This document shows positions 9,988 through 25,007 of a DNA stretch of 25,007 nucleotides, piece after piece. The stretch comes from a virus: IMG/VR virus record IMGVR_UViG_3300010368_000099, positions 1 through 25,007 of that record. One strand, 5' to 3'. The notes under the pieces are model-generated. The model had not been told where the DNA came from. It saw only the letters and a program-made list of their open reading frames with translations, and searched no databases. The stretch's first letter is position 1. Every line of letters starts with the position of its first letter. Position numbers and translations under genes: made by a program.

Positions 9988-10404
9988 TCATATAGTATTA
10001 TTTATCGCGCAAGACTTCCTCAGCGCGGAACTACTAAATCTGTGATCTCTATTATTAAAGAATAAATCAATATCTCGCCTGCGGCAAATATCTTTTCCTG
10101 TAAAATCTTTATCTCTATATTCGTTGCCCAAGATTCTAACATGAATTGTATATAATTCAAGAATATCTTCGAGGTCTTGTTCTGTTGAATAAGGAATAAT
10201 TTCGTCAACATAGCGTACTGCCTTTAATTGACTATACCTCTCAACTATTGTTTGTATAGGAGGATTTTTACTAGCTCTATCATGCGAAGGATCCATTTGC
10301 AGCCCAACAATTAAATAATCGCACTGTTCTTTTGCTTCTCTTAACATTTGAACATGGCCTGCGTGTAGCAAATCAAAAGTGCTACAAGTAAAACCTATTT
10401 TCAT
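9988..10404 (-). CDS. cytidylyltransferase-like nucleotidyltransferase
   Basis: 138 residues, the size of TagD/glycerol-3-phosphate cytidylyltransferase (about 130). The CTP-binding signature STFDLLHAGH has its HxGH at 14-17. Another conserved segment is ILGNEYRDKDFTGKDI (91-106). The C-terminal RTxGISTT block of the family is replaced by HRFSSSALRK (121-130), so substrate is uncertain. Activity would be transfer of CMP (or AMP) to a small phosphate such as glycerol-3-phosphate or a sugar phosphate. The gene sits between gp15 and gp16; I recall the same placement in vibriophage KVP40-type genomes. AAGGAA precedes the ATG. A role in virion glycan or lipid modification is only inference. Confidence 0.85.
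   Translation of the reverse strand: MKIGFTCSTFDLLHAGHVQMLREAKEQCDYLIVGLQMDPSHDRASKNPPIQTIVERYSQLKAVRYVDEIIPYSTEQDLEDILELYTIHVRILGNEYRDKDFTGKDICRRRDIDLFFNNRDHRFSSSALRKSCAINNTI
9999..10006 (-). promoter_or_regulatory. possible weak late promoter (GATAAATA) before gp16
   Basis: One mismatch to TATAAATA, inside the last codons of the cytidylyltransferase and 28 bases before the gp16 ATG. Spacing is similar to that of the exact octamers. Confidence 0.35.
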
Positions 10405-11981: not shown

Positions 11982-12725
11982 TTACCCAATATAGTTATAA
12001 GAAAGAGGCTGTAAATTATTAATGGCATCTTCTTCCATTAACTTTCTTTCTTCCTTACCGTCAGCAAGTATTTGCTCTCCATTAAATTGAACTCCGCCAA
12101 CTAATGACATTCCAGTAAACTTAGTTAAATTTGAACCCCACTGCTCTTTAATCAATGCCGCAGTATAATTCTGTAACCAACGATCTGACCATACATCAGA
12201 GTAAGTTGATGGATCTATTACATCGTAAGCTTCAATGATAATATATTCGCCTACTCCCAATGATCCTTTATCAATATCAAGGTATAATCTATTTACATGT
12301 TTGTTATATCTTACCATGGGTTTGCCAACAAGCATTTCTTGCAAAAACTCCATGTGAGACATTGCCATAAAATAGTTTGTAGTATTATAACCCGTAATAT
12401 CTTCAAGATTATTTAATACGAATTGATACTGAACATTAAAGATTCCTGAACCGGTTGATATACTTGACTGCATATTAAATATACCAGATATGCCAAGTAA
12501 TTGTGGCGGCAATGTTACGTATCCGTTAGTTTTATCTTCTTCGGTAATTTGGTGTTTTAAATAAACTAATTGACTACCGTTATAATGATAGTCTCTCCAG
12601 AAATCCACGGCTTCATCAATACGATCGTCTATTTGTTCATCAGAAACATTAATGTCAATGACAGGCGCCCCGAGCTTTCTCATTACCCAGTCTTTAAAAG
12701 TTTGTCTGCTTGTTGGCTGTGCCAT
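11982..12725 (-). CDS. 13: neck protein gp13
   Basis: Head-completion neck protein that binds the portal side. The protein has 247 residues, shorter than T4 gp13 (309). Family features are the N-terminal FKDWVMRKLGAPVIDINVSDEQIDDRIDEA and W43-RDYHY region and the C-terminal LQNYTAALIKEQWGSNLTKF with GGVQFNGEQI. A late-promoter octamer lies 27 bases before the ATG. It leads the neck-packaging operon that continues to gp17. Confidence 0.93.
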   Translation of the reverse strand: MAQPTSRQTFKDWVMRKLGAPVIDINVSDEQIDDRIDEAVDFWRDYHYNGSQLVYLKHQITEEDKTNGYVTLPPQLLGISGIFNMQSSISTGSGIFNVQYQFVLNNLEDITGYNTTNYFMAMSHMEFLQEMLVGKPMVRYNKHVNRLYLDIDKGSLGVGEYIIIEAYDVIDPSTYSDVWSDRWLQNYTAALIKEQWGSNLTKFTGMSLVGGVQFNGEQILADGKEERKLMEEDAINNLQPLSYNYIG

Positions 12726-13248: not shown

Positions 13249-13254
13249 TTCCTT
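13249..13254 (-). promoter_or_regulatory. ribosome binding site that sets the start at 13242
   Basis: AAGGAA on the minus strand, 6 bases before the ATG at 13242. It decides between that ATG and the upstream in-frame TTG at 13269. Confidence 0.65.
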
Positions 13255-14068
13255 ACGGTTCGAAGTCAACAGACATCGATAATGTACCTGTTGCTAAAAC
13301 TACAAGTGTGGACGCATTCCTAATTTGTAAATTGCCTATAATATTCTTAACACCGGGATTGTAATCCGAATCACGAATACTCCAAGTTCTGGATGTTCCA
13401 AGATTAAGCCAAACACCATTACCTGGATTAGCGATTACATCGCCAGTAGAACCTGTAAAACTCCATCGTACATCGTAATCGCTTGCGGCACCAGTTATTA
13501 ACCAAGTTTCAGAACTCATGAGTGTCGCCCCACCACCACCGTTAGATCCAACATTACTCATTGACGCAATACCGGTGCTTGCTATTCTGAAGTTACACTG
13601 TGCCGCGCCGCCCAGGCTGGAAGCGTAGACAAAACCAGCCCAAGGGGTGTTATTCATTACAACGTCTGGGCTCGCCGCAGCAGCAGTACCATATCCTTGA
13701 GCATTAGCTCTTATAACGCCGAGATTACAAAGTTGAAAAGCTATCATCCAATATCGACTGCCGCTCCATGTAGGAGTAGTACTAGCCGGCCACTTAACAT
13801 TTGCACTAAAAGTTGGCGTATATCCAGTAGCAGAAGTATCTAAAAGTAACATAGAAGTTGAACCTTTAAACGCATCAGTTGCGTTAGCTTCAGTAAATGT
13901 AACATTAGAAGACATAACTAACTTCGTCATTGGCTTAGTAAAATCAATAACCGTTGTAATAGTCTGGAGTGTAGCATGAAAACTGCCAGATATACCGTCA
14001 GCGTCTGCAATATTAGTTAATGCTCTTGCATTTGTTATTACTTCAGCGTTTCCTACCTTAATTGCCAT
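13253..14068 (-). CDS. virion-like paralog, domains A and B
   Basis: 271 residues. Domain A is about residues 1-126: it opens MAIKVGNAEVITNARAL, continues TVIDFTKPM, SSNVTFTE and LLLDTS, and ends with TPTWSGSRYW (98-107). Domain B is about 170-271 and has NGVWLNLGTSRTW and a C-terminal LATGTLSM strand. Between them is a Gly-rich link. The same A plus B plan is found in the next upstream gene. The opening MAIKVxxxxVI is common at the N-terminus of marine T4-like fibre or structural proteins, so a virion-surface role is likely but unproven. AGAGGA precedes the ATG. Confidence 0.85.
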   Translation of the reverse strand: MAIKVGNAEVITNARALTNIADADGISGSFHATLQTITTVIDFTKPMTKLVMSSNVTFTEANATDAFKGSTSMLLLDTSATGYTPTFSANVKWPASTTPTWSGSRYWMIAFQLCNLGVIRANAQGYGTAAAASPDVVMNNTPWAGFVYASSLGGAAQCNFRIASTGIASMSNVGSNGGGGATLMSSETWLITGAASDYDVRWSFTGSTGDVIANPGNGVWLNLGTSRTWSIRDSDYNPGVKNIIGNLQIRNASTLVVLATGTLSMSVDFEP

Positions 14069-14080
14069 TTGTATTATCCT

Positions 14081-14890
14081 CTATTGTGCTTCTTGGTTAG
14101 CAATCATGGCATAATATCCAGTTGCAAGAATGTTAACTCCACCAGAATCACTAGCTATTCTAAATAACATATTACAACTAGGTATTGATCCTCCGGCAGT
14201 GGTATCAACGACTTGAAATGTTCTTTCAACATTTAGGGCCAACCAAGCATTAGCAACAGAGCTGCCAGAGCCTAAGGCTCCAGATTGAACTGTGCCATTA
14301 ATATAGTAAGTTTGCGAAGGAGTATCATTGCACCATTCAGTTCCAGCACCAAACTGAGCATTATATGTGCCAGTTATATTAGTTCTGAATAATGTACCAT
14401 CTGTTTTAAATTTCCACCCCGCCACAGCATCCGCGCCATTAGGTGTTATGGAGAGGGCAGTATTATAACTACCACTGCTGCCGCTCAAAGCCACTGTTTC
14501 AGATACAGCTACTGATGGTTGATAAGCAACTGCGGTAGCTCTTACTTCAGTAGAGGACCAACATACCAAACCAATTTGCCAATATCTAGCGCTTGTCCAT
14601 GTTGGTTCAGTACTGTCTGGCCATATTATGTTAGCACTAAAAGTTGGGATATACGGTGCAGTGCCAGTATCTAAGAATAAGAATGCTGTGTGCCCACCAT
14701 TTTTATTTGATTCTGTAAATGTAGTATTAGAAGACATAATTGCTATCATCATAGGAATTGTAAAATCAATTACCGTGCTGATAGAAGTTAAGTTCTGGTG
14801 AAGTCCAGTATATACGCCTGTAGCACCAGTAATATTTTCTATTTGTCTGGTGTTATTGATTACAGTAGTACCGCCTACTTTAATAGCCAT
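14081..14890 (-). CDS. virion-like paralog, domains A and B
   Basis: 269 residues with the same two-domain plan as its downstream neighbour. Domain A (about 1-127) has MAIKVGGTTVINNTRQIENI, TVIDFTIPM, SSNTTFTES, LFLDTG and EPTWTSARYW. Domain B (about 165-269) has NAWLALNVERTF and NILATGYYAM. The intervening part SETVALSGSSGSY is Ser/Gly-rich. The two AB genes have diverged well apart yet keep length and motifs, so duplication is old or selection for variety is strong. AGGAG precedes the ATG. The 12-base gap to the next gene and the shared promoter at 15331 suggest co-expression. Confidence 0.85.
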   Translation of the reverse strand: MAIKVGGTTVINNTRQIENITGATGVYTGLHQNLTSISTVIDFTIPMMIAIMSSNTTFTESNKNGGHTAFLFLDTGTAPYIPTFSANIIWPDSTEPTWTSARYWQIGLVCWSSTEVRATAVAYQPSVAVSETVALSGSSGSYNTALSITPNGADAVAGWKFKTDGTLFRTNITGTYNAQFGAGTEWCNDTPSQTYYINGTVQSGALGSGSSVANAWLALNVERTFQVVDTTAGGSIPSCNMLFRIASDSGGVNILATGYYAMIANQEAQ

Positions 14891-14904
14891 TATTCGTTCT
14901 CCTA

Positions 14905-15294
14905 TTATGCATCATAACCTATTGCCGTTACTCTTACGTCTGTGCCACCATACGCGGCCATATTAACAAGCCAATATCGATGATCCGACCAAGTTGGTTC
15001 AGTTGGCGCAAAATTAAATACACTTGTCGGCCAAGAAGGAGTCCATGGTGTAGCGGACGTATCCAAATCAAGTATTGTTGTCCTTCCGGGAACGACATTA
15101 GTAACAGTGTATGTTGTGTTTGTTGTAAGAACGTCATAGTAAAACGGATAGTTCATATCAATCACGCCGGCATTGGCACTTGGTGAAGGGCGAAAATGAT
15201 CGTACACACCAGTGATGTCTAGAATATTTTGTAAGGCGCCGCCTGTGTATACACCATTGTTTATGACGGTTGTCCCGTCTATTTTAATTGCCAT
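14905..15294 (-). CDS. virion-like paralog, domain A only
   Basis: 129 residues, all domain A: MAIKIDGTTVINNGVYTGGA, then VIDMNYPF, TNTTYTVTN, LDLDTS and EPTWSDHRYW, ending at GYDA with no domain B. It is the first gene of the four-gene set, 37 bases downstream of a late-promoter octamer, with GGAGG before the ATG. Function is unknown. Confidence 0.85.
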   Translation of the reverse strand: MAIKIDGTTVINNGVYTGGALQNILDITGVYDHFRPSPSANAGVIDMNYPFYYDVLTTNTTYTVTNVVPGRTTILDLDTSATPWTPSWPTSVFNFAPTEPTWSDHRYWLVNMAAYGGTDVRVTAIGYDA

Positions 15295-15330: not shown

Positions 15331-15338
15331 TATTTATA
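15331..15338 (-). promoter_or_regulatory. T4-type late promoter (TATAAATA) for the four-paralog set
   Basis: Exact TATAAATA on the minus strand in the 46-base gap between the cupin fusion and the first paralog, 37 bases before the ATG at 15294, followed by AAACTAATAAT. Confidence 0.78.
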
Positions 15339-15340
15339 CA

Positions 15341-16105
15341 TTAATCACGGCGTTCGATATCTGATTCTGTTAACTTATCTCCAAGCCATACTTCAATTAC
15401 CTTTGCAGGTTCATCTCCGACGTTTGTTGCTTTATGCCAGCATCCTACTGGAATATCAATGCTTTGTCCTTCACAATAGATACGAGATTCTGTTAAACGA
15501 TTACCGTGATCAAGTTCCATTAATATAGAACCTTTTACAACATGCCAATGTTCAGATCTATGAAAGTGTCTTTGGTTACTTAATGCTTGACCAACATCAA
15601 AGCTTAATTCTTTAACCGCCCATTTACCATTTTGAGCCAAAACGGTATAAGTACCCCAATCTCGGCGAGTTGTAGGTTGAGACCATTCTTTTAATATCCA
15701 GCTTGAGCTATTCTTTTTATCTTCTCCACCTACACCGAAAGTAAAGAGCACGTCCTCAACAGCCATCTCAGGGATGTTGTCTGACGTTCTATCACCACCA
15801 TTAACGAATACAATAGTATCTAACGGATATAGTAGTTTAACCTGTTCTAAGCAATCTATTGCGCTTCCATCCGAATCATCAAATGCTATTACATTATCAA
15901 CACATCGCAATTCTTTTATAATTGCAGCTCTTTCTTTCCAAGGCATAAAGTGTTTGCCTTTTTTACGAATTAGCCATTCATCTGAATTAACGCCAACAAC
16001 CAATCGAGGAGAATTAGCGCAATCAATTATTTTTGCTGCTTTTAAATACTCAATATGACCTGTGTGAATAGGATCAAAACCACCAGTTGCGACTACTGTT
16101 ATCAT
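15341..16105 (-). CDS. nucleotidyltransferase fused to a type II phosphomannose-isomerase-like cupin
   Basis: 254 residues from the ATG at 16105, which overlaps the upstream stop as ATGA; an ATG at 16135 is in frame but would add 10 residues before the first beta strand and overlap 34 bases. Residues 1-125 are a cytidylyltransferase-fold nucleotidyltransferase: GGFDPIHTGH with HTGH at 14-17, and NGGDR at 103-106. Residues 145-254 resemble the C-terminal cupin of ManC-type mannose-6-phosphate isomerases: RDWGTYTVL, VKELSFDVGQALS, RHFHRSEHWHVVKG (H180, H182 and E185 as candidate metal ligands), H224, and EVWLGDKLTESDIERRD near the C-terminus. The ManC GT-A pyrophosphorylase half is absent. A bifunctional sugar-phosphate enzyme (isomerise, then activate) is inferred; the substrate is unknown. 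Confidence 0.88.
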   Translation of the reverse strand: MITVVATGGFDPIHTGHIEYLKAAKIIDCANSPRLVVGVNSDEWLIRKKGKHFMPWKERAAIIKELRCVDNVIAFDDSDGSAIDCLEQVKLLYPLDTIVFVNGGDRTSDNIPEMAVEDVLFTFGVGGEDKKNSSSWILKEWSQPTTRRDWGTYTVLAQNGKWAVKELSFDVGQALSNQRHFHRSEHWHVVKGSILMELDHGNRLTESRIYCEGQSIDIPVGCWHKATNVGDEPAKVIEVWLGDKLTESDIERRD

Positions 16106-17319
16106 GATACTATTGGTCCCATTGCATAATCCCATATAAAGTTAATATCTTTTTTGGATTTCATATTAATGATAACATCTTTACAAACAACATCAGGATG
16201 TATGTACCAATCTTCGTATGCGCAAGATTCATTAAACGCCACGTTTGGTACTGTAAGAATATAACCATAGCCTTCTAAGTATTTTCTTACTTCATCACGC
16301 TGTGCAGTTCCTAATCTATAAGAATCATGTTCAAACGTAATTACTCCAAACTTTACTGTTTCAAATGGTATATTCTTTAATATTGTCGTTGAAGCTTCAT
16401 CGCAATCAATTTGCAGATAATCAATTATGTGATCCATAGAATGTATATTTAAAAGATCAGAATAACTAATATCAGTTGCATCAACGCAAATAACAGTATT
16501 AGATCTTTTCTCTTTAAATTTATAACACAACGCTGGGTTATTGTCAATAGAAATACCTTTCCAGCCAAAACTTTCTAACAAAGCTGTGTTGTTATGAATT
16601 AACGGATCTCCTGAACCAATTTCTAAATATGATCCTTTAGTTTTGCCATCAAAGCATGAAAGTACAAACATATCTTGAAAATGTTTAGAATTATTTTCCT
16701 TAATAGATTCTATATTAGAAAAAGGAAACTTATACCTAGCCATTTCATTAACAGTATAAGGTATAGTATCTGGATACCAAATGCGTTCAGTAATACGGTT
16801 TACTCTTTCTTTTAGATTAGGTTCTAGCTTATACTTATATTTTAAATCAAAGAACAGATGTTTACCAATTTGTTGCCCTGTAATGTACCACGTAGATAGT
16901 GCACGATAAAATAATAGCCAATCGGATCCAGGATAATTGAGTTCTTCATTTGTAGTTTCGTGTGGTGCTATTAATAATCCAGTTTTTGCATATGCTAAAC
17001 AATGTTTCCAATTTGATTTAGATTCATAATATTTACATAAATGATAGTAAGCTTCAGGCCGCGCTGGATTTAATGCAATTGCGTCAAGTAATGCACCTTC
17101 AACTGTAAAGCCACGATCTCGCTGTCTATCATAACACAAAGCAATTCCAATCATACAGTTATATTGTAAATCTGTGTTATCACTTAGGTCAGCCGCCTTT
17201 AAGTATAATGAAACACCCATTGCGCCCTGTTCCAAGCGATCGTATTCTTTTGCCAAGTCATAGCATTTAAACGGATTCTTCGGATCCATGATATGAGTTT
17301 CTAATAATTCCTGTAACAT
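16102..17319 (-). CDS. TPR-like repeat protein fused to an FkbM-family SAM methyltransferase
   Basis: 405 residues. The N-terminal half (about 15-185) is helical with TPR-like spacing (Y40-LKAADL, EAYYHLCKYY at 89-98, HCLAYAKTGLLIAP at 107-119). The C-terminal half (about 215-390) is an FkbM-type methyltransferase: YLEIGSGDP (231-239) as SAM motif I, LLESFGWKGISIDNNP (247-262), DYLQIDCDE (300-308) and VITFEHDS (326-333). FkbM enzymes often O-methylate sugars, which fits the neighbouring sugar-type enzymes. GAGGGG lies in the end of the preceding gene, 2 bases before it, and its TGA overlaps the next start, so the three genes are coupled. The acceptor is unknown. Confidence 0.9.
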   Translation of the reverse strand: MLQELLETHIMDPKNPFKCYDLAKEYDRLEQGAMGVSLYLKAADLSDNTDLQYNCMIGIALCYDRQRDRGFTVEGALLDAIALNPARPEAYYHLCKYYESKSNWKHCLAYAKTGLLIAPHETTNEELNYPGSDWLLFYRALSTWYITGQQIGKHLFFDLKYKYKLEPNLKERVNRITERIWYPDTIPYTVNEMARYKFPFSNIESIKENNSKHFQDMFVLSCFDGKTKGSYLEIGSGDPLIHNNTALLESFGWKGISIDNNPALCYKFKEKRSNTVICVDATDISYSDLLNIHSMDHIIDYLQIDCDEASTTILKNIPFETVKFGVITFEHDSYRLGTAQRDEVRKYLEGYGYILTVPNVAFNESCAYEDWYIHPDVVCKDVIINMKSKKDINFIWDYAMGPIVS

Positions 17320-17321
17320 AA

Positions 17322-18356
17322 TTAACCCCTCGCCACAAAATCAAAAAATAATTGCTCTGGCATCTTCAAAATAAATGTTCCATTATCTTGATACCCAAAA
17401 GCAATTAAAACATTACCATTTAAGAACGCCATACCCGTAGCAAACTCAATATTATATTCGTTACCAGTAGTAGGATCAATCTGTGTACCTAAAAAGTGAA
17501 AGTCTTGTGTATTATGAACCATGTTCCACTCATCATCCCATACAACAATTCTATGATTATAATGACCATCTTTGCGCGAGAAGGCATCTCTTGATAAATC
17601 AACCTCATGCGTAATTGTCATTCTTCGGTTTTCGCCGATCGGATATACTTGTGTACCGCCTCGTAAATCGCGTGGTAGTTTATATGTCTTTTCAGCATCA
17701 TGCACTATTGTCGTCGTTGTTCTTGTATCAGGGTCGTACTTAACAACTTCTACAGGATTGCACCATTTAACAAAATGCCACGGTTTATCAATAATAGGCA
17801 TCCAATTCTTTTCACAAAAGGTAGCATCATCGTTAGGGGCAGGAATAGGATTTCTAGATATTTCTTGCCATTCGCCATCAATGAATTCTATTTCAGCCAT
17901 TTCCATGCGGCCAGTTCCTATATTATCATAGGCATCTCTGCGAACTCCGCATAGAAATAATCGACCGTCCCAACTAAATAGTCGGCCATCTTCAAGACCA
18001 ATAAAATTCCAGGTTGGTGTACCTGTATCTAAATTCATTTTAATACGGCTTGCACTAAGAACATTGAGATCAGCATCTAACTCTGTCATAATATTATGAG
18101 TAGTTAGAGTGACATCATTTTCTGGGTGTAAGTATTGGAGAGGACCCCAAGTGTGAGGAAACTTTTTACCTTCTGAATGATATAAGGTATAGTTAACATG
18201 GCGAACGTTCATTAAAATCTTTCCATCGTGTATAAAGATGGACGGATTCATAATACCGGTTTCGCCAGTTAATTCTTTTGGTAACGTAATTGGGTGTATA
18301 CTTCCGCCTCTTTTTAAAGCGTAGTGCACCAACCCGTGATGACGCAAATCATGCAT
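17322..18356 (-). CDS. beta-propeller glycan-active enzyme-like protein (GH43/GH130-like fold, tentative)
   Basis: 344 residues with no signal peptide. The repeating motif order fits a five-bladed propeller of the GH32/43/62/68/130 kind: MNPSIFIHDGKILMNVRHVNY (36-56), GLEDGRLF-DGRLFLCG (120-137), CEKNWMP (181-187) with CNPVEVV, RGGTQVYPI (232-240), THEVDL (249-254) and EFATGMAFLNGNVLIAFG (304-321). I cannot say which family or whether it cuts, phosphorolyses or transfers sugar; GH130/GT108 relatives would transfer or phosphorolyse mannosides, which would suit the ManC-like cupin next door. GGAG lies before the ATG at 18356. It could also be a non-catalytic glycan-binding protein. Confidence 0.7.
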   Translation of the reverse strand: MHDLRHHGLVHYALKRGGSIHPITLPKELTGETGIMNPSIFIHDGKILMNVRHVNYTLYHSEGKKFPHTWGPLQYLHPENDVTLTTHNIMTELDADLNVLSASRIKMNLDTGTPTWNFIGLEDGRLFSWDGRLFLCGVRRDAYDNIGTGRMEMAEIEFIDGEWQEISRNPIPAPNDDATFCEKNWMPIIDKPWHFVKWCNPVEVVKYDPDTRTTTTIVHDAEKTYKLPRDLRGGTQVYPIGENRRMTITHEVDLSRDAFSRKDGHYNHRIVVWDDEWNMVHNTQDFHFLGTQIDPTTGNEYNIEFATGMAFLNGNVLIAFGYQDNGTFILKMPEQLFFDFVARG

Positions 18357-18388
18357 ATAAACTCCATAATGTAAATCAATTTTTTAGA

Positions 18389-18718
18389 TTAACCCCAAGG
18401 CCTCGCGCGCTCGACGATATCTAAATTACTTATCTTGCCTGCGATTGTTGCATCATAAGACGCAATTAAATCAGCAGACATTGTGGATTCTATCCAATTA
18501 ACAACCGCTTCTTTTGTTAGTGAAGCAAACGCGGTAAAGTCACTCTCAGCAACTGAAACAGCTGATAACTGTGTATAACCAACTATGAACGCAGAGTTAT
18601 CATTTTCAGTTCCAACTCTGCGCCACTTGACATTTACAACCGCATCAGAAAGAACCACGCCATCAGCATTGGTTAGATCTTTTGTATCAAACTTTACAAT
18701 TTGCCAAGAGTAAGTCAT
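18389..18718 (-). CDS. small paralogous structural-like protein, short form
   Basis: 109 residues, paralogous with the gene just upstream: shared pattern YSW or YTW, then NxxGVxLxxAxV, FTAFASLT, VVNWIES, and a closing PWG. AAGGAATAGG precedes the ATG at 18718, 10 bases after the previous stop. No catalytic motif is visible. I recall related genes near fibres in marine T4-like phages, but I cannot name a function. Confidence 0.82.
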   Translation of the reverse strand: MTYSWQIVKFDTKDLTNADGVVLSDAVVNVKWRRVGTENDNSAFIVGYTQLSAVSVAESDFTAFASLTKEAVVNWIESTMSADLIASYDATIAGKISNLDIVERARPWG

Positions 18719-18728
18719 TACCTATTCC

Positions 18729-19139
18729 TTATTCAGGGAGTTCAAGTTCTTCAGGCGTAGGTGGTGTTACACCATCAGTGCCATCGCCCCAAGGTACTGG
18801 CGCATCTTGAATTAATTCTTCATCAATTGAATACTGAATTCTAGACACAATATGATCTGCATAGCCTTGATCTGCATCAATTACTGACTGAATCCAACTA
18901 AGAACAGTTACTTCAGTCAAATCTGCAAACGCAGTAAAAGATCCAGCTGGAACTTTTGAAGCAGAAAATGGAGTTGCACCAGTAAATGTACCAGAGTTTC
19001 CATTTGCGTCAGTGCCTGTTACTTTCCAATGTGTTTGAACAATAGCGCCTTCTAAAGTTACACCTTCAGAATTAACTTCGTTCTTTTTCTTGAGACTGTT
19101 TACTTCCCAAGTATAAGTAAATTTTGTATTAAGTGCCAT
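18729..19139 (-). CDS. small paralogous structural-like protein, long form
   Basis: 136 residues. It matches the next gene over its first 117 residues (YTWEVN, GVTLEGAIV, GTFTG-TPFSAS, FTAFADLT, VLSWIQS, PVPWG) and adds an acidic Gly/Pro/Glu tail of about 20 residues. AGGAG precedes the ATG and a late-promoter octamer lies 45 bases upstream, so it leads the operon that carries the glycan-type enzymes. Function is unknown. Confidence 0.82.
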   Translation of the reverse strand: MALNTKFTYTWEVNSLKKKNEVNSEGVTLEGAIVQTHWKVTGTDANGNSGTFTGATPFSASKVPAGSFTAFADLTEVTVLSWIQSVIDADQGYADHIVSRIQYSIDEELIQDAPVPWGDGTDGVTPPTPEELELPE

Positions 19140-19183: not shown

Positions 19184-19191
19184 TATTTATA
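19184..19191 (-). promoter_or_regulatory. T4-type late promoter (TATAAATA) for the glycan-enzyme operon
   Basis: Exact TATAAATA on the minus strand in the 60-base gap after the 144-residue gene, 45 bases before the ATG at 19139, followed by GAATTACAATATAA. It is the only exact octamer before the five genes ending at 15341. Confidence 0.78.
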
Positions 19192-19199
19192 TAATCTAA

Positions 19200-19634
19200 T
19201 TAATCTTCAGTACAGCCTTCGTAAAAATCCAAAGATTTTAGATGATTGTATCCTTGTACTAGATCTGAGTCAGCCGATGCCATATCGAGCATGAATTCAC
19301 ATCGTTGATCTAATCCTGGGGTACCAATTGATAAATTAGCTTGGACTTCTGTAGAGTTAAGGCCCGCATATCCAATAGCGTCCATGCCAGAATCGCGCGC
19401 GGCTTTATCTTTAAAGATAGTAACCCATATTCTACAAACATAACCTGCAGCCCAATGTACCTCTGTGTCAAGTTCTCTTACACCATTGTTAGTTAAGCCT
19501 GATGCCGTTCCATTATCTGGTGGCAAAGCGATCTCGGCCATTCTTTTATTTACTTTAATATCAGAAATTACGTGGTAAGCGTTCGGCACTACCACACCAG
19601 TTCCCTGTATTTCATAATCTTTAATTAGTGCCAT
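19200..19634 (-). CDS. fibre-adjacent protein of unknown function
   Basis: 144 residues with N-terminal MALIKDYEIQGTG and a beta-rich centre (EVHWAAGYVCRIWVTIF) that suggests a compact all-beta protein. It begins one base after the fibre stop and has GGAG inside the fibre's last codons, so it is likely coupled to the fibre. Three cysteines are present; no known active-site motif appears. By position, a fibre accessory, attachment or assembly factor is plausible, as in T4 gp38, but the sequence does not resemble T4 gp38. Not recognised. Confidence 0.82.
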   Translation of the reverse strand: MALIKDYEIQGTGVVVPNAYHVISDIKVNKRMAEIALPPDNGTASGLTNNGVRELDTEVHWAAGYVCRIWVTIFKDKAARDSGMDAIGYAGLNSTEVQANLSIGTPGLDQRCEFMLDMASADSDLVQGYNHLKSLDFYEGCTED

Positions 19635-19635
19635 C

Positions 19636-22600
19636 TTACTTCTCCATCATTTGTTGTATATTATAAACCATTTCTTTCAGCATGTCAATATCTTTCTGCT
19701 GATTATTTATTATTTCTTTCTGTGCTTCTACGATTGCGTGTTGATCTTTAATACCTTCAACAAGCAATCCAACAACGTTACCGTAATTAATACCGTATTC
19801 ATCAACATCTTCAGCATGAGTTACTACTTCTGGTAATATCTCAATTACTTCCTGAGCGATAAGACCAATTTCTTTCTTGCCTGTCCATGAATCTTTAATA
19901 TGCTCTTCATAGATTCTATTATAACTAACACCACGCATTTGTAAAATCTTATCTAATGCGCCGTCGATAGTTTCAATATTTTCTTTCTTACGTCTATCAG
20001 AGTAAGCAACGATATCACTTGTTGCATATATTGCACCACTAACATATAAGGAATATGCAGAACTCGTGGCGGAACTAGCAATACCCATACAGTTATTGCC
20101 AAGGCTATGATAGTATATCCAACGGCCATAATTTTGAGAATAATGGCCGCCATTACCAGCACCATCAAGCATCCAATGAGAATTACCAGCTTGGCTAATA
20201 GCAAGGCCGTAATAACCACTTCTGTTACCGTGCATATTCCAAGAACCATAACTTGTTGCGTTATTTGGATAGAAGTGAGAACCGTTATAATCATCATAGA
20301 TACCGACACCACCACCGCCAACTTGGAGCCATGTATTTGCATATGTGTAATTTGAGCCGCCGTTAACTTGGAAGTTAACAGTACTATTGTTATAATCGGA
20401 CATGAATCTCATGCCACCATAGGATGAGTTAGCAGCAAAAGTTAGTCCGGTGTGATACTGGAATACCGTTCCTTTTACCCATGCCCCGCCTTCTTGGAAA
20501 CCCCAACTATAAGGATAACTTGATCTTGTTAAACCAGAGTTACTACCAGGATACGGACTATTGTATATGTTACCGTTTATAGCATTCATTCTCGACGTAC
20601 TTGCTGGATCACAATAGTAACCAGCGTTGTTTGCATCATAATAAATGCCGGCGTACATTGCACCAGCGCTACCATCATTAACGTCGAGCATTGGAACTGT
20701 ACGCCATGCGCCAAAGCCACCCCACGATTGACGGAAACGAAGGTTACCAATTGGACCACCAACCAACTGCCAACCGTAGTTAGTACCGCCAGCGCCATAG
20801 TGAAACGCTTGAGTACCTACCCAATGCGAAGTACCTGATGGTTGGTTAGCAGGATTACTCCAAGAATCAATAAAGCCAGGACCCCATTGGGCTACGACCG
20901 ACATGTCGATTGTGCCCCAGCCCATCGAACCAGTCCAATAGTTTTGGTCACTAGTTATACGAGGTCTTGCTGAGTAATATTCTGCTGAGCTTGCTGTCTT
21001 GCCAGAAAGACCCATCATTGCCTTAGTTCTATTACTTACACCTTCAAATCGTGTTGAGTTAATCGATGCGCCATCAAAGTAATATCCAGTATTATTTCTA
21101 TCGTAATAGATATAAGAACGTGTATCGTTTTGATAAGTTATACCATACTGTTCCGAAGAACCGCTTACAGTACGTAATGCCCAACCGCCGGCACTGTGTA
21201 ATAATCCAAAACCACTTGCATCGTAATAGAGGTAACCGCGACGACCTGCACCTGCACCTTGTGAGCCGTTATATTGATCGTATAAAATTAAACCGCCACT
21301 ACCGCCACCGCCATCCATATGCCAATAGGCTGAACCTGGACTGTAGAAGTGACGGCCTGTTGCTTGGTTATATAAACCTTGACCTCCGTTATAGTTACGG
21401 AACCAACCATCGGTATAAGCTTCGGTCATTCTTGTTGTATTAAATCTTGAATCACCACCGCCTGAACCGAAGTAAAAAGCAGTATTTTCACGATCGTAGA
21501 ATATATTTGCTCTTACATCATTCATATACGAAGTAGAAGCAAAGTCACCATAATAAGCAGTATTATCTCTATCGTAATAGATGTTAGCTTGTACTGATCC
21601 GTTAATGTAAGTTGTTCCACCTACATACCATTGTAAGTATAAGCTATTACCTGAACGAGAATCTATGTGCAAGTTACCGTTTGTAGCCGCAACCGAAGCA
21701 TAAGAACCAGACCAATGACCGTTAGTGCCAACCGCAAGGTAATGGCCCCAAGTTGGGTTAGGTCCGTATAATGTACCACCTCTTTGTCTTCCTGCCGCAT
21801 TACTGGTAGAGTTAGGATCATAATAATAAGTAGTATCATTCAGATCATAGAAGATTGGAGCACGCATGTCGGTTTCGTTAGCAAGATAACCTAATCGAGT
21901 ATTTGTGTATGACCCATTCCAATACCATAACCAGCTTGAATCATTATTATGAACACCAAAGTTGTTACTGTTTCCAGTACCAGAACTCATCATTGTCCAT
22001 TTTCTACTGATACCAATACCTGACCAACCACCAGCACCTGTACCGTAGGTTGTCATGTTACCGTATGGATTGCCACCTGCTCCAGCAGAATATATTCCGT
22101 ACCCAGTGTCGAAGAGCAAACCCGTTGAACCTTGAGGTCTGAACCAGTTGTTTGCATATACAGCGGACAACTGAGAAGTTGATGCAGGATCTACATAATA
22201 ACCGGTATTATTATAATCGTAGAATAACGTACCACGAACGTCAGCACTAAATACCGCTCTACTTGAAATGGCAGCTCTAAATCCACCATTATTGATAATC
22301 AACAAACCATGATCGTTTAGATTGTTTGCTCCACCTTTAGAGCCAGCGTTTGGATGAGACCACGCAATACCATACATATTTGCCGTAGAATTACCATCGG
22401 CCGGTAGACGATATGAAGCACCCATTGCGAATACTTGTTGTAAACGAGTAGACGTATACGTACCAGTTACACCAACACCGTAGTCTAGGAATGTATGATA
22501 ACCGCCTTGCTGGGAAGCATTCCAGTAAGAAGTACTAGCCATATCCATGTAGTAGCCAGTATTATTCAAATCATAGAATATAGGTGCTCTAAACGAACCT

Positions 22601-25007
22601 GAAGTTGAAACGTAGTTCAGCGTATTTTGAATATAAGCATCATAAGTTAATGTCCAGGCCTGAGTTGGGAAACTATCGTTACCACCTAATGCAGCATACC
22701 AACCTGTTTGACCACTACCCCAACCTGAAGCATACTTATATAAACCAGTTGAAAGATGCGTTCTATAACCTGAACTATATAATGCAGTCTGATGAGTTAA
22801 CGGTAAGTAAGTATTTGAAGTACCAACATTATAATCTCTATTTCTTGTTGAAATCGGAGCATTGGTTAATCCACTTAAACTTGTTGAAGCATATTTCTGT
22901 GGATTATCAGCATAAAAGATTGCATTTGTAGTCAATGCACCAGCAGTAGTTAATCCATTAAGATTCGAAGTTGATGCTGGATCTAAATAATATCCTGTAT
23001 TATTTGAGTCATAGAAGATTGGTGCTCGGAAACTGTATGCAGTATAAACATACAACGCATCACCGTAAACATCAAACAATCCAAGATTAGCAATTGAACC
23101 AGTTGCCGAACCGTGTCGACCAATACGGAAGTCAGCGCCGCTACCGTTATTATTATTTGAATCTAAGTTAACAAACAATGAACCGTATGTGTTAATTCTG
23201 ATATCATCAGTAGCGGTACCGGCATTATTTCTTGATGAGATACTATGGAACCCGCCGCTATCGCCGCCGTAGAATTCTATGAAGTCTCCACGAGTTGCCA
23301 TAACAACTTTATTTGGCGTTATAACATTGAATCTTGAATTGCCAGCTTGGTCACTATAATATCCTGTATTATTTGAGTCATAGAAGATAGGAGCTCTAAG
23401 TGAATTGCCGGCTTCTAAGTAGTTGTTAACATATACATAACCGGAGGAGTCCATTCGCATATTAGTAGAACGTGTTCCGGCTGTATTCGTATTATAAAAA
23501 TATGTGTGGCCATCAATCGAGAATCGCATGTAAGCCTGACCACGAGTAGTATTTGGTCGGCCGAAGAAATACTGATCTGTACCACTGTTGAGGTTGTTAT
23601 CAACGTTATAACCGAACCCGGCCCAGTCCCAAGTATTACCTGGTTCCGAAACCCACATTTGTAACGCAATTTCGCCAGTACCTGCACCATTATTAGCAGC
23701 AGGAAGAGCCAATCTTATTGCTGTAGTACCGTGATCACCGGTTACATCTAATCTCTTGCCGCCTGCGCGATAACCAATACCTAGCTGTTCTACACGACCG
23801 TTAGAGTTTGGATCCAAGTAATAAGCAGTATTATTCCAATCATAGAAGATTGAAGCTGTTGCCGAACCACCTTCAACATATAAGTTATTACTATTCTCAA
23901 CTCTAACATTATTATCGCCTTTACCTACCGATAATAATAAAATACTTAGATCTTCGTTATTGTATATACGAGTACCACCGTAGGCTGCCTGAGCACCCAT
24001 ACGAATACCTGTATGCCATCTTAAATCAAGCTTGGTATAATTACCACCATAGTTTTCTTTGTTTGTACCAATATAGTAATCATTATTAGCATTACTATCA
24101 CCACCACCAAAATGTAATCTTGTGGAAGCAACTGAATCATACGGGTTGTTTTCAAAAGTACCACCAATTACAACACGGCCTGCAGTTATTAACGTATTGA
24201 GTCGGGACTCACCGGCAAAATCACCATAATAACTAGTGTTATCTAAATCGTAGAAGATAGGAGCGCGTTTAGACACTGCTGAATATGAGTTGCCTGCAAA
24301 ATCAATATACCATTTAGCTGGATATGTCCAGCCCACACCTACACCGTAATGTGGATTATCGTTATTATCATAACCACCGATTGAAAAGAAGTTTGGTGCA
24401 GAGTTAGGAGTACCAATATTCCAACGCCTAAAGCCACCGCCGTTTGCCGATCTAAAACTAATTACACCGCCATGAGTAGTATTAGACCCTGAAGAGTGAA
24501 GAGTAAGATGTGGATAAGCTTGCCCAGCACCTAATTCAATAATAGGTCTGTTTGTATCTCTTGTTGTTACAGGTGCACCAGATCCACCAACTTTAAGATA
24601 AGAATTGGCTGCAGTCATTTCCTGATTATAAATTCTTGATGTATCTGCGGGATTTACATAGTAACTAGTATTATCTACATCGTAAAATATAGTACCACGA
24701 ACATCGCTGCCAAATCTACCGTATCCTGCTGCATCTAAATCACCGCCAATAGTTACATCATCTAATACTTGTAAATCATCAACTAACAAATTAGATTCTG
24801 CATTACGGCGTTTCAGCATAATACCGCCGAACTCTCTTAAAGCGCCGCCAGAAGCATAGTTAAGTAATATTCTTATTCTAATCCAATGAACACCGCCACC
24901 ATCTGAACCACTATAAGGTGTATGAGATGTTGGAAGCGTTGTATGATTTCTTAGAGTTTCCCAAGAAGTACTTGTTCTGTTTGAACCGCCAACAACAAAG
25001 TAATCAC
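19636..25007 (-). CDS. giant tail fibre with S74 self-cleaving chaperone tip (N-terminus beyond the window)
   Basis: The frame is open to the right edge with at least 1789 codons. The Met at 24819 opens a 1727-residue reading, but 62 more in-frame codons precede it without a stop, and the last in-window codons still read as protein. The body has 12 degenerate repeats of the type FYDxNNTxYYxDPxSTS, usually about 115-155 residues apart, with Gly/Asn/Ser-rich, Tyr/Trp-rich beta segments between. Near the C-terminus, counting from that Met, is YSDRRKKENI with S1607 and K1612 at the Ser+5 spacing of the Ser/Lys dyad of S74 endosialidase/L-fibre chaperones; cleavage should fall at the serine and release about 120 residues. 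The end is a coiled coil (VEAQKEIINNQQKDI). It is the host-range fibre by inference. Confidence 0.93.
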   Translation of the reverse strand, partial: DYFVVGGSNRTSTSWETLRNHTTLPTSHTPYSGSDGGGVHWIRIRILLNYASGGALREFGGIMLKRRNAESNLLVDDLQVLDDVTIGGDLDAAGYGRFGSDVRGTIFYDVDNTSYYVNPADTSRIYNQEMTAANSYLKVGGSGAPVTTRDTNRPIIELGAGQAYPHLTLHSSGSNTTHGGVISFRSANGGGFRRWNIGTPNSAPNFFSIGGYDNNDNPHYGVGVGWTYPAKWYIDFAGNSYSAVSKRAPIFYDLDNTSYYGDFAGESRLNTLITAGRVVIGGTFENNPYDSVASTRLHFGGGDSNANNDYYIGTNKENYGGNYTKLDLRWHTGIRMGAQAAYGGTRIYNNEDLSILLLSVGKGDNNVRVENSNNLYVEGGSATASIFYDWNNTAYYLDPNSNGRVEQLGIGYRAGGKRLDVTGDHGTTAIRLALPAANNGAGTGEIALQMWVSEPGNTWDWAGFGYNVDNNLNSGTDQYFFGRPNTTRGQAYMRFSIDGHTYFYNTNTAGTRSTNMRMDSSGYVYVNNYLEAGNSLRAPIFYDSNNTGYYSDQAGNSRFNVITPNKVVMATRGDFIEFYGGDSGGFHSISSRNNAGTATDDIRINTYGSLFVNLDSNNNNGSGADFRIGRHGSATGSIANLGLFDVYGDALYVYTAYSFRAPIFYDSNNTGYYLDPASTSNLNGLTTAGALTTNAIFYADNPQKYASTSLSGLTNAPISTRNRDYNVGTSNTYLPLTHQTALYSSGYRTHLSTGLYKYASGWGSGQTGWYAALGGNDSFPTQAWTLTYDAYIQNTLNYVSTSGSFRAPIFYDLNNTGYYMDMASTSYWNASQQGGYHTFLDYGVGVTGTYTSTRLQQVFAMGASYRLPADGNSTANMYGIAWSHPNAGSKGGANNLNDHGLLIINNGGFRAAISSRAVFSADVRGTLFYDYNNTGYYVDPASTSQLSAVYANNWFRPQGSTGLLFDTGYGIYSAGAGGNPYGNMTTYGTGAGGWSGIGISRKWTMMSSGTGNSNNFGVHNNDSSWLWYWNGSYTNTRLGYLANETDMRAPIFYDLNDTTYYYDPNSTSNAAGRQRGGTLYGPNPTWGHYLAVGTNGHWSGSYASVAATNGNLHIDSRSGNSLYLQWYVGGTTYINGSVQANIYYDRDNTAYYGDFASTSYMNDVRANIFYDRENTAFYFGSGGGDSRFNTTRMTEAYTDGWFRNYNGGQGLYNQATGRHFYSPGSAYWHMDGGGGSGGLILYDQYNGSQGAGAGRRGYLYYDASGFGLLHSAGGWALRTVSGSSEQYGITYQNDTRSYIYYDRNNTGYYFDGASINSTRFEGVSNRTKAMMGLSGKTASSAEYYSARPRITSDQNYWTGSMGWGTIDMSVVAQWGPGFIDSWSNPANQPSGTSHWVGTQAFHYGAGGTNYGWQLVGGPIGNLRFRQSWGGFGAWRTVPMLDVNDGSAGAMYAGIYYDANNAGYYCDPASTSRMNAINGNIYNSPYPGSNSGLTRSSYPYSWGFQEGGAWVKGTVFQYHTGLTFAANSSYGGMRFMSDYNNSTVNFQVNGGSNYTYANTWLQVGGGGVGIYDDYNGSHFYPNNATSYGSWNMHGNRSGYYGLAISQAGNSHWMLDGAGNGGHYSQNYGRWIYYHSLGNNCMGIASSATSSAYSLYVSGAIYATSDIVAYSDRRKKENIETIDGALDKILQMRGVSYNRIYEEHIKDSWTGKKEIGLIAQEVIEILPEVVTHAEDVDEYGINYGNVVGLLVEGIKDQHAIVEAQKEIINNQQKDIDMLKEMVYNIQQMMEK
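20587..24695 (-). repeat. 12-copy degenerate FYDxNNTxYY repeat array in the tail fibre
   Basis: Protein-level repeats centred near 24670, 24230, 23835, 23360, 23000, 22550, 22205, 21840, 21560, 21480, 21080 and 20620. Typical spacing is 345-475 bases; the copies at 21560 and 21480 are only about 80 bases apart and one other spacing is about 280. Copies differ: DP is replaced by DF, DQ, DM or DG in some, and one has C after YY. The array is coding, not a tandem DNA repeat. Confidence 0.9.

Follow-up and report, generated by a model that had tools for sequence, protein, structure and literature searches.

The genes between the tail fibre and the neck of a marine phage raise the question of why a virus would express a set of sugar-type enzymes late in infection, and on what these enzymes would act. 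The locus lies in a 25,007-base virus record, the whole of which was analysed and is called the window here; its main genes, including every feature located below, are all on the minus strand. PHROG matches to the portal, tail tube, tail sheath and large and small terminase subunits, together with further matches to a sheath stabiliser, head closure protein Hc2, head-tail adaptor Ad2 and a giant S74-type tail fibre, identify the phage as a marine T4-like myovirus. Its terminase is nearest to those of the Sinorhizobium phages phiM12 and phiN3 at only 59%, and the phage is therefore no close relative of any isolate. Three relatives were placed in a single Rhodobacteraceae metagenome bin, which is only a hint at the host.

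Judged by gene order and promoter position, five genes form one late transcription unit: two DUF7936 genes, a propeller gene, a TPR-FkbM gene and a nucleotidyltransferase-cupin fusion. The unit is opened by the late-type octamer TATAAATA (19184..19191), 45 bp 5' of the first DUF7936 gene, and an exact match at 15331..15338 marks its end and opens the next unit, so that it is bounded on both sides. The first DUF7936 gene (18729..19139) encodes a structural-like protein of 136 aa (PF25590, E 1.5e-14; phrog_7802) and the second (18389..18718) a 109-aa paralog (PF25590, E 1.9e-13). The octamer has seven exact copies in the window, every one of them on the minus strand and in intergenic DNA, 20-66 bp 5' of a gene, although such DNA makes up just 5.6% of the window. 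Among relatives, 37 of 53 loci keep the exact octamer 5' of the first DUF7936 gene; it was never found 5' of the FkbM or fusion gene in the relatives' loci, and only two octamers fell within the three enzyme genes in the 174.6 kb scanned. These results bear out the earlier note on this DNA, which had described three sugar-type genes in a row behind two structural-like paralogs, headed by one exact late octamer at 19184; the genes lie where it had placed them.

Upstream of the unit are a gene for a 144-aa protein (19200..19634), whose cyanophage homologs are located at tail-fibre genes, and the gene for a giant tail-fibre protein of 1727 aa (19636..24819) with a C-terminal S74 chaperone (PF13884, E 4e-16; phrog_5668 tail fiber, E 3e-31), a candidate acceptor of modification. 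Downstream, three structural-like paralogs of 129, 269 and 271 aa (13253..15294), which have the common N terminus MAIKVxGTTVINN and belong to the next late unit, and a 164-aa gene precede head-tail adaptor Ad2 (11982..12725; phrog_211, E 4e-40), the first neck gene. The set had thus been rightly located between tail fibre and neck, but it does not directly adjoin the neck, because these four genes intervene.

The propeller gene (17322..18356) encodes a 344-aa protein with a predicted five-bladed, GH130/GT108-like fold (AF2 pLDDT 79 and fold search). A direct search of its sequence against the PDB returned nothing, and NCBIfam contained no model matching this protein or the TPR-FkbM protein; identification of the propeller therefore relied on profile and fold searches. 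The fold search with the AlphaFold model returned 21 GH130 entries as its top rows (Z 21-24 over 264-289 residues, rmsd 3.1-4.2), followed by the GT108 mannosyltransferases/phosphorylases, which are Leishmania enzymes (Z 18-19), and then by GH43 (Z about 17), with 10-14% identity to the solved structures. The predicted model has the five-bladed beta-propeller fold that CAZy gives for GH130. GH130 and GT108 themselves share a common fold and mechanism while differing in sequence (PMC8950772).

Analysis of conserved residues pointed to a mannose site. N37, E122, D123 and D324 are invariant in the clade, and in remote cellular homologs N37, D123 and D324 are also invariant and E122 is nearly so. 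In Teth514_1788/1789, Asn28, Asp92/98 and Asp281/287 bind mannose at subsite -1, and Glu91/97 is the mark of the GH130_NC group (PMC4264767). Profile alignment placed N37, D123, D324 and E122 on these respective residues, giving the phage protein the Asn/Asp/Asp of the GH130 mannose -1 subsite through local alignments that are weak (E 0.1-0.3). Since each alignment is weak alone, the predicted mapping is argued from the joint agreement of all positions and the fold. The family has signatures of its own (EKNWMP, RGGxQ, GLEDxR and YxHR); the window propeller did not match the Pfam GH130 model, which four of 13 family members match (best E 1.3e-4). Because of this lack of a match and the distinct EKNWMP and RGGxQ signature, we name the family GH130/GT108-like rather than a member of either, and propose that the propeller is a beta-mannosyltransferase. 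At least 590 viral stretches match the family, whose cellular homologs occur as fusions with TPR and GT2 domains.

The next gene (16102..17319) encodes a 405-aa protein that profile and fold evidence divides into a TPR part (about residues 1-185) and an FkbM-type methyltransferase (about 190-405). Residues 1-185 matched an engineered TPR protein with a profile E of 9e-14, and O-GlcNAc transferase and other TPR proteins also matched; the fold agrees, VIA-align on the whole model being a good test for the TPR half alone. The FkbM model PF05050 scored below its cutoff in the window protein (E 0.0032; 18.1 bits against 22.7) and matched six of 17 clade members at E<=0.01, while homologs reached 9.3e-26 for FkbM and 6.9e-19 for TIGR01444. 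A methylated-sugar step would follow solely from this FkbM assignment.

The last gene of the unit (15341..16105) encodes a nucleotidyltransferase (residues 1-145; PF01467, E 4e-12) fused to a type-II phosphomannose-isomerase cupin (146-254; PF01050, E 4e-22, 79 bits against a cutoff of 23.6). Its start is more likely the ATG at 16105 than the previously noted 16135: the former shares 4 bp (ATGA) with the FkbM stop, in line with the spacings of -4, 0 or +3 in relatives. The second His of the cupin H-x-H metal motif is present in the window, but roughly every second aligned relative has another residue there, making isomerase activity uncertain. TIGR01479 and TIGR02199 matched the fusion partially, and the latter, the HldE/RfaE equivalog, scored 63 bits against a cutoff of 181.5, placing the domain in the same superfamily without making it that enzyme by model. 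In 50,697 phage records no match spanned 80% of the fusion, and the two halves were found apart; the complete fusion occurs in two 1.4-Mb alphaproteobacterial genomes, beside pyruvate kinase. The closest bacterial single-domain relatives of the nucleotidyltransferase half adjoin phosphomannomutase in four of 13 fetched loci, two of which have the order isomerase cupin-phosphomannomutase-nucleotidyltransferase, and some bacterial loci have GT2 and gmd-like genes nearby (gmd-like by sequence motifs only). The phosphomannomutase and isomerase neighbours suggest that mannose-1-phosphate may be the substrate of the nucleotidyltransferase. HldE-type heptose activation was set lower, since equivalog cutoffs were missed and these bacterial neighbours are not heptose genes. 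Cyanophage relatives of the nucleotidyltransferase adjoin DNA polymerase, not fibres, and therefore lend no support to a virion role; phosphomannose isomerases of cyanophages were already known (PMC9602691).

A propeller scan found 55 loci, with more from a profile scan, and dereplication at 95% propeller identity gave 55 relatives' loci. In these, wherever it could be scored, a DUF7936 gene lies upstream (53/53), the TPR-FkbM methyltransferase comes next (53/53), the fusion follows in 51 of 52 (L096 lacks it), and neck genes lie 2-6 kb downstream (47/47). Close pairs gave dN/dS values of about 0.04-0.29, indicating purifying selection on all three enzymes. Far from being scattered or unlinked in relatives, the outcome that the earlier note named as telling against it, the three genes show almost absolute linkage in the clade. 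Because the loci were retrieved via the propeller and the clade has shared ancestry, this conservation reflects stability, not independent assembly.

The region upstream is less constant. Among 37 dereplicated clade loci with 5.5 kb of upstream sequence, 21 have a giant ORF, 15 instead have at least two CxxxCxxC (radical-SAM-like) ORFs and one has neither; Pfam matches confirmed that these arrays hold genes of the radical-SAM and 2OG-Fe(II) oxygenase types. With an array in place of the giant fibre in about 40% of relatives, the unit is not bound to a single fibre, and arrays of peptide-modifying enzyme types would fit a protein acceptor.

The propeller-TPR pair extends well beyond the clade. 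Of 57 distant viral loci left after dereplication, with propeller identity mostly 46-60%, 50 have the same TPR module in the gene after the propeller, usually with a 4-14 bp overlap between the two genes. The fusion partner of the module is FkbM in most and otherwise GT17, GT25, another methyltransferase (Methyltransf_24) or radical SAM. The conserved-neighbourhood search proposed in the earlier note thus yielded a near-invariant three-gene order within the clade and a pair kept in very different phages. Big fibre-like ORFs lie within 3.5 kb upstream in 36 of 39 distant loci, compared with 126 of 153 control ORFs of the same loci, a control so weak that fibre size alone is not counted as evidence; collagen-like repeats occur upstream in 18 of 39 compared with 32 of 153, and many proteins upstream of distant pairs match tail-fibre PHROGs. 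Two named phages carry the pair: in Synechococcus phage DSL-LC02 (OR032571) it lies between fibre/collagen-like genes, and in Synechococcus phage S-SCSM2R (PQ898602), isolated on WH7803, it follows a gene with a tail-pin annotation and is close to nrdAB. In both, the propeller is 43-44% identical and a TPR-FkbM protein is directly next; unlike the window, neither has the nucleotidyltransferase-cupin fusion or DUF7936 genes in the fetched regions, and the S-SCSM2R pair is away from the fibre/neck region. Our literature search on the pair found no description, and the paper describing DSL-LC02 is silent on it. We tentatively suggest a modular fibre-decorating system, widespread in phages, in which a GH130/GT108-fold mannosyltransferase and an acceptor-presenting TPR adaptor would be constant and the catalytic domains (FkbM or other methyltransferases, GT17, GT25, radical SAM) interchangeable, with one clade adding a fused isomerase-nucleotidyltransferase for activated mannose; we hold this somewhat less likely than not to be right.

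Taken together, the late, conserved unit probably serves to produce a sugar of the mannose type, attach it and methylate it. The cupin would convert fructose-6-phosphate to mannose-6-phosphate, a host phosphomannomutase would yield mannose-1-phosphate and the nucleotidyltransferase would turn this into NDP-mannose, from which the propeller could pass mannose, or a sugar related to it, to an acceptor; docking of the acceptor polypeptide may fall to the TPR part, and the FkbM domain may methylate a sugar hydroxyl. The acceptor would most likely be a virion protein made concurrently: the giant fibre, the DUF7936 proteins or the MAIKV paralogs. We consider this pathway, mannosylation and methylation of a virion protein with a TPR protein adaptor, the best reading of the locus, at a probability of roughly 0.48. 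Its basis is gene order, promoter position, conservation, predicted folds, conserved site residues and module swapping, from which we infer the substrates, the direction of reaction, the methylation target and the virion as acceptor. Inference lends the mannose chemistry reasonable support, and the virion is favoured as target at about even odds. We rejected a role of the glycan enzymes in modifying DNA, as the unit has no DNA-modification gene.

The main rival to a virion target is the host surface, where late in infection the enzymes would change the O-chain, or another glycan of the envelope, and so keep other phages or newly released progeny from binding to the cell or its debris. The unit occupies the position of the host recognition cluster of pelagimyophages and cyanomyophages, whose glycosyltransferases and rfaE were read as modifying the host O-chain (PMC7029224); GT25 is an LPS-biosynthesis family, and the bacterial nucleotidyltransferase relatives belong to gene clusters for polysaccharides that also contain GT2 and gmd-like genes. 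However, the promoter is late, the unit has no membrane, flippase or lipid-carrier enzyme, and the protein-docking TPR module, DUF7936 co-transcription and recurrent fibre neighbours also speak against it; no membrane segments were predicted in the unit's enzymes, which disfavours action on a lipid-linked glycan. We regard host-surface modification as unlikely, though deserving serious weight. The claim that the late unit modifies the virion has the support of the late promoter, DUF7936 co-transcription, soluble enzymes, the O-GlcNAc transferase-like TPR and frequent fibre neighbours, but has to contend with the radical-SAM array that replaces the giant fibre in those 15 clade loci and with the published O-chain view for the same position (PMC7029224).

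The same arrays and their 2OG-Fe(II) oxygenases, found in one branch of relatives, and the TPR-radical SAM fusions of some distant phages would suit an intracellular modification of phage or host proteins for another purpose (for example one in which these enzymes act jointly with radical-SAM and 2OG oxygenases on a small protein or peptide) in which mannose is not involved. Yet the window neighbours are fibre and structural-like genes, and propeller and fusion alike indicate mannose, and we find such a modification distinctly improbable. Degradation is another use of this fold, as characterised GH130-fold enzymes are mostly catabolic phosphorylases or hydrolases (PMC8950772), and the propeller might free mannose-1-phosphate from host glycans as a metabolic aid, its neighbours just sharing the late promoter. 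That would sit poorly with late expression, with a protein that has no signal peptide or membrane segment, and with the fixed pairing to a TPR-methyltransferase/glycosyltransferase fusion across very different phages, and there is little chance that it is correct.

The usual label for sugar genes of marine T4-like phages is host-surface 'auxiliary metabolic genes'. Here, late co-transcription, strict conservation and a protein-docking module in one pathway open the alternative, that phages glycosylate and methylate virions of their own, to direct testing in named phages. The analysis also assigns a GH130/GT108-fold family to viruses, points to a nucleotidyltransferase of Rossmann type as the probable mannose-activating enzyme and reveals a plug-in architecture of TPR plus an interchangeable enzyme. 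We found no description in the literature of the invariant unit, the GH130/GT108-like phage family or the constant propeller and TPR-X architecture.

Comparison with known systems revealed partial likeness in each case. Chloroviruses and giant viruses encode their own glycan assembly, including methyltransferases, for a virion protein, but these are eukaryotic viruses with other enzyme families, and the window unit is known from genes alone. The fusion resembles ManC, the type-II phosphomannose isomerase/GDP-mannose pyrophosphorylase, in joining an isomerase cupin to a nucleotidyltransferase, but a short N-terminal CTP_transf-like (HldE/TagD-type) domain replaces the ManC pyrophosphorylase domain. 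With the GH130 mannoside phosphorylases and hydrolases and the GT108 mannosyltransferase-phosphorylases, the propeller shares the five blades, the aligned Asn/Asp/Asp mannose site and the GH130_NC-type Glu, and it differs in being a phage-borne, separate sequence family (10-14% identity) with a TPR partner. The host recognition cluster of pelagimyophages and cyanomyophages, with its fibres, glycosyltransferases, rfaE and radical-SAM cassettes, occupies the same place in T4-like marine phages, from the fibre/baseplate end to the neck genes, and a GH130-fold enzyme and a TPR-FkbM protein are not named for it in the portions of the source consulted (PMC7029224). Its content is described as hypervariable and non-syntenic (PMC7029224), whereas the unit in the window is a five-gene block that is almost invariant throughout its clade.

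Comparison of 37 dereplicated loci revealed that a radical-SAM array and the giant fibre, which in the window is the 1727-aa S74-type tail-fibre protein, were mutually exclusive upstream of the late unit in these loci. In one branch of relatives, this upstream region carried 3-5 radical-SAM-like genes together with 2OG-Fe(II) oxygenases, and these relatives lacked an adjacent giant fibre. Such arrays were found in loci L032 (877-8089) and L108 (1318-5832), and in the upstream regions of L116 and L122.

The three paralogs at 13253-15294 of the window, which share the N terminus MAIKVxGTTVINN and are preceded by a conserved leader, GCTAATAGTC...GGAGACGAAG, differed in copy number between relatives and were absent from some. 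For Ad2, the neck gene encoding the head-tail adaptor, the match was broken into two pieces ~200 bp apart in several relatives (L009, L010, L011 and L013), possibly reflecting an intron or insertion.

Homologs of the propeller in bacteria carried fused GT2 and TPR domains, as in L079 (2651-7953) and L073 (5109-8997), with at most two propellers per protein. The nucleotidyltransferase-isomerase fusion was also found in two small alphaproteobacterial genomes (G051 and G272; loci L240 and L241), where it adjoined pyruvate kinase, making these genomes a possible cellular source of the fusion. Five contigs assigned to bacterial genomes of Pirellulales, Rhodobacteraceae and Bacteroidetes (L063-L067) are phage contigs carrying the late unit, and their bacterial labels therefore look like binning contamination.

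Finally, a second nucleotidyltransferase, HldE/TagD-like, lies at 9988-10404 of the window within the neck-packaging block, between the sheath stabiliser and the small terminase. This gene was kept in one part of the clade of phages with this late unit, and Vibrio phage genes showed 77% identity to it. A related NMNAT-like protein has been reported in cyanophage virions (PMC9602691).
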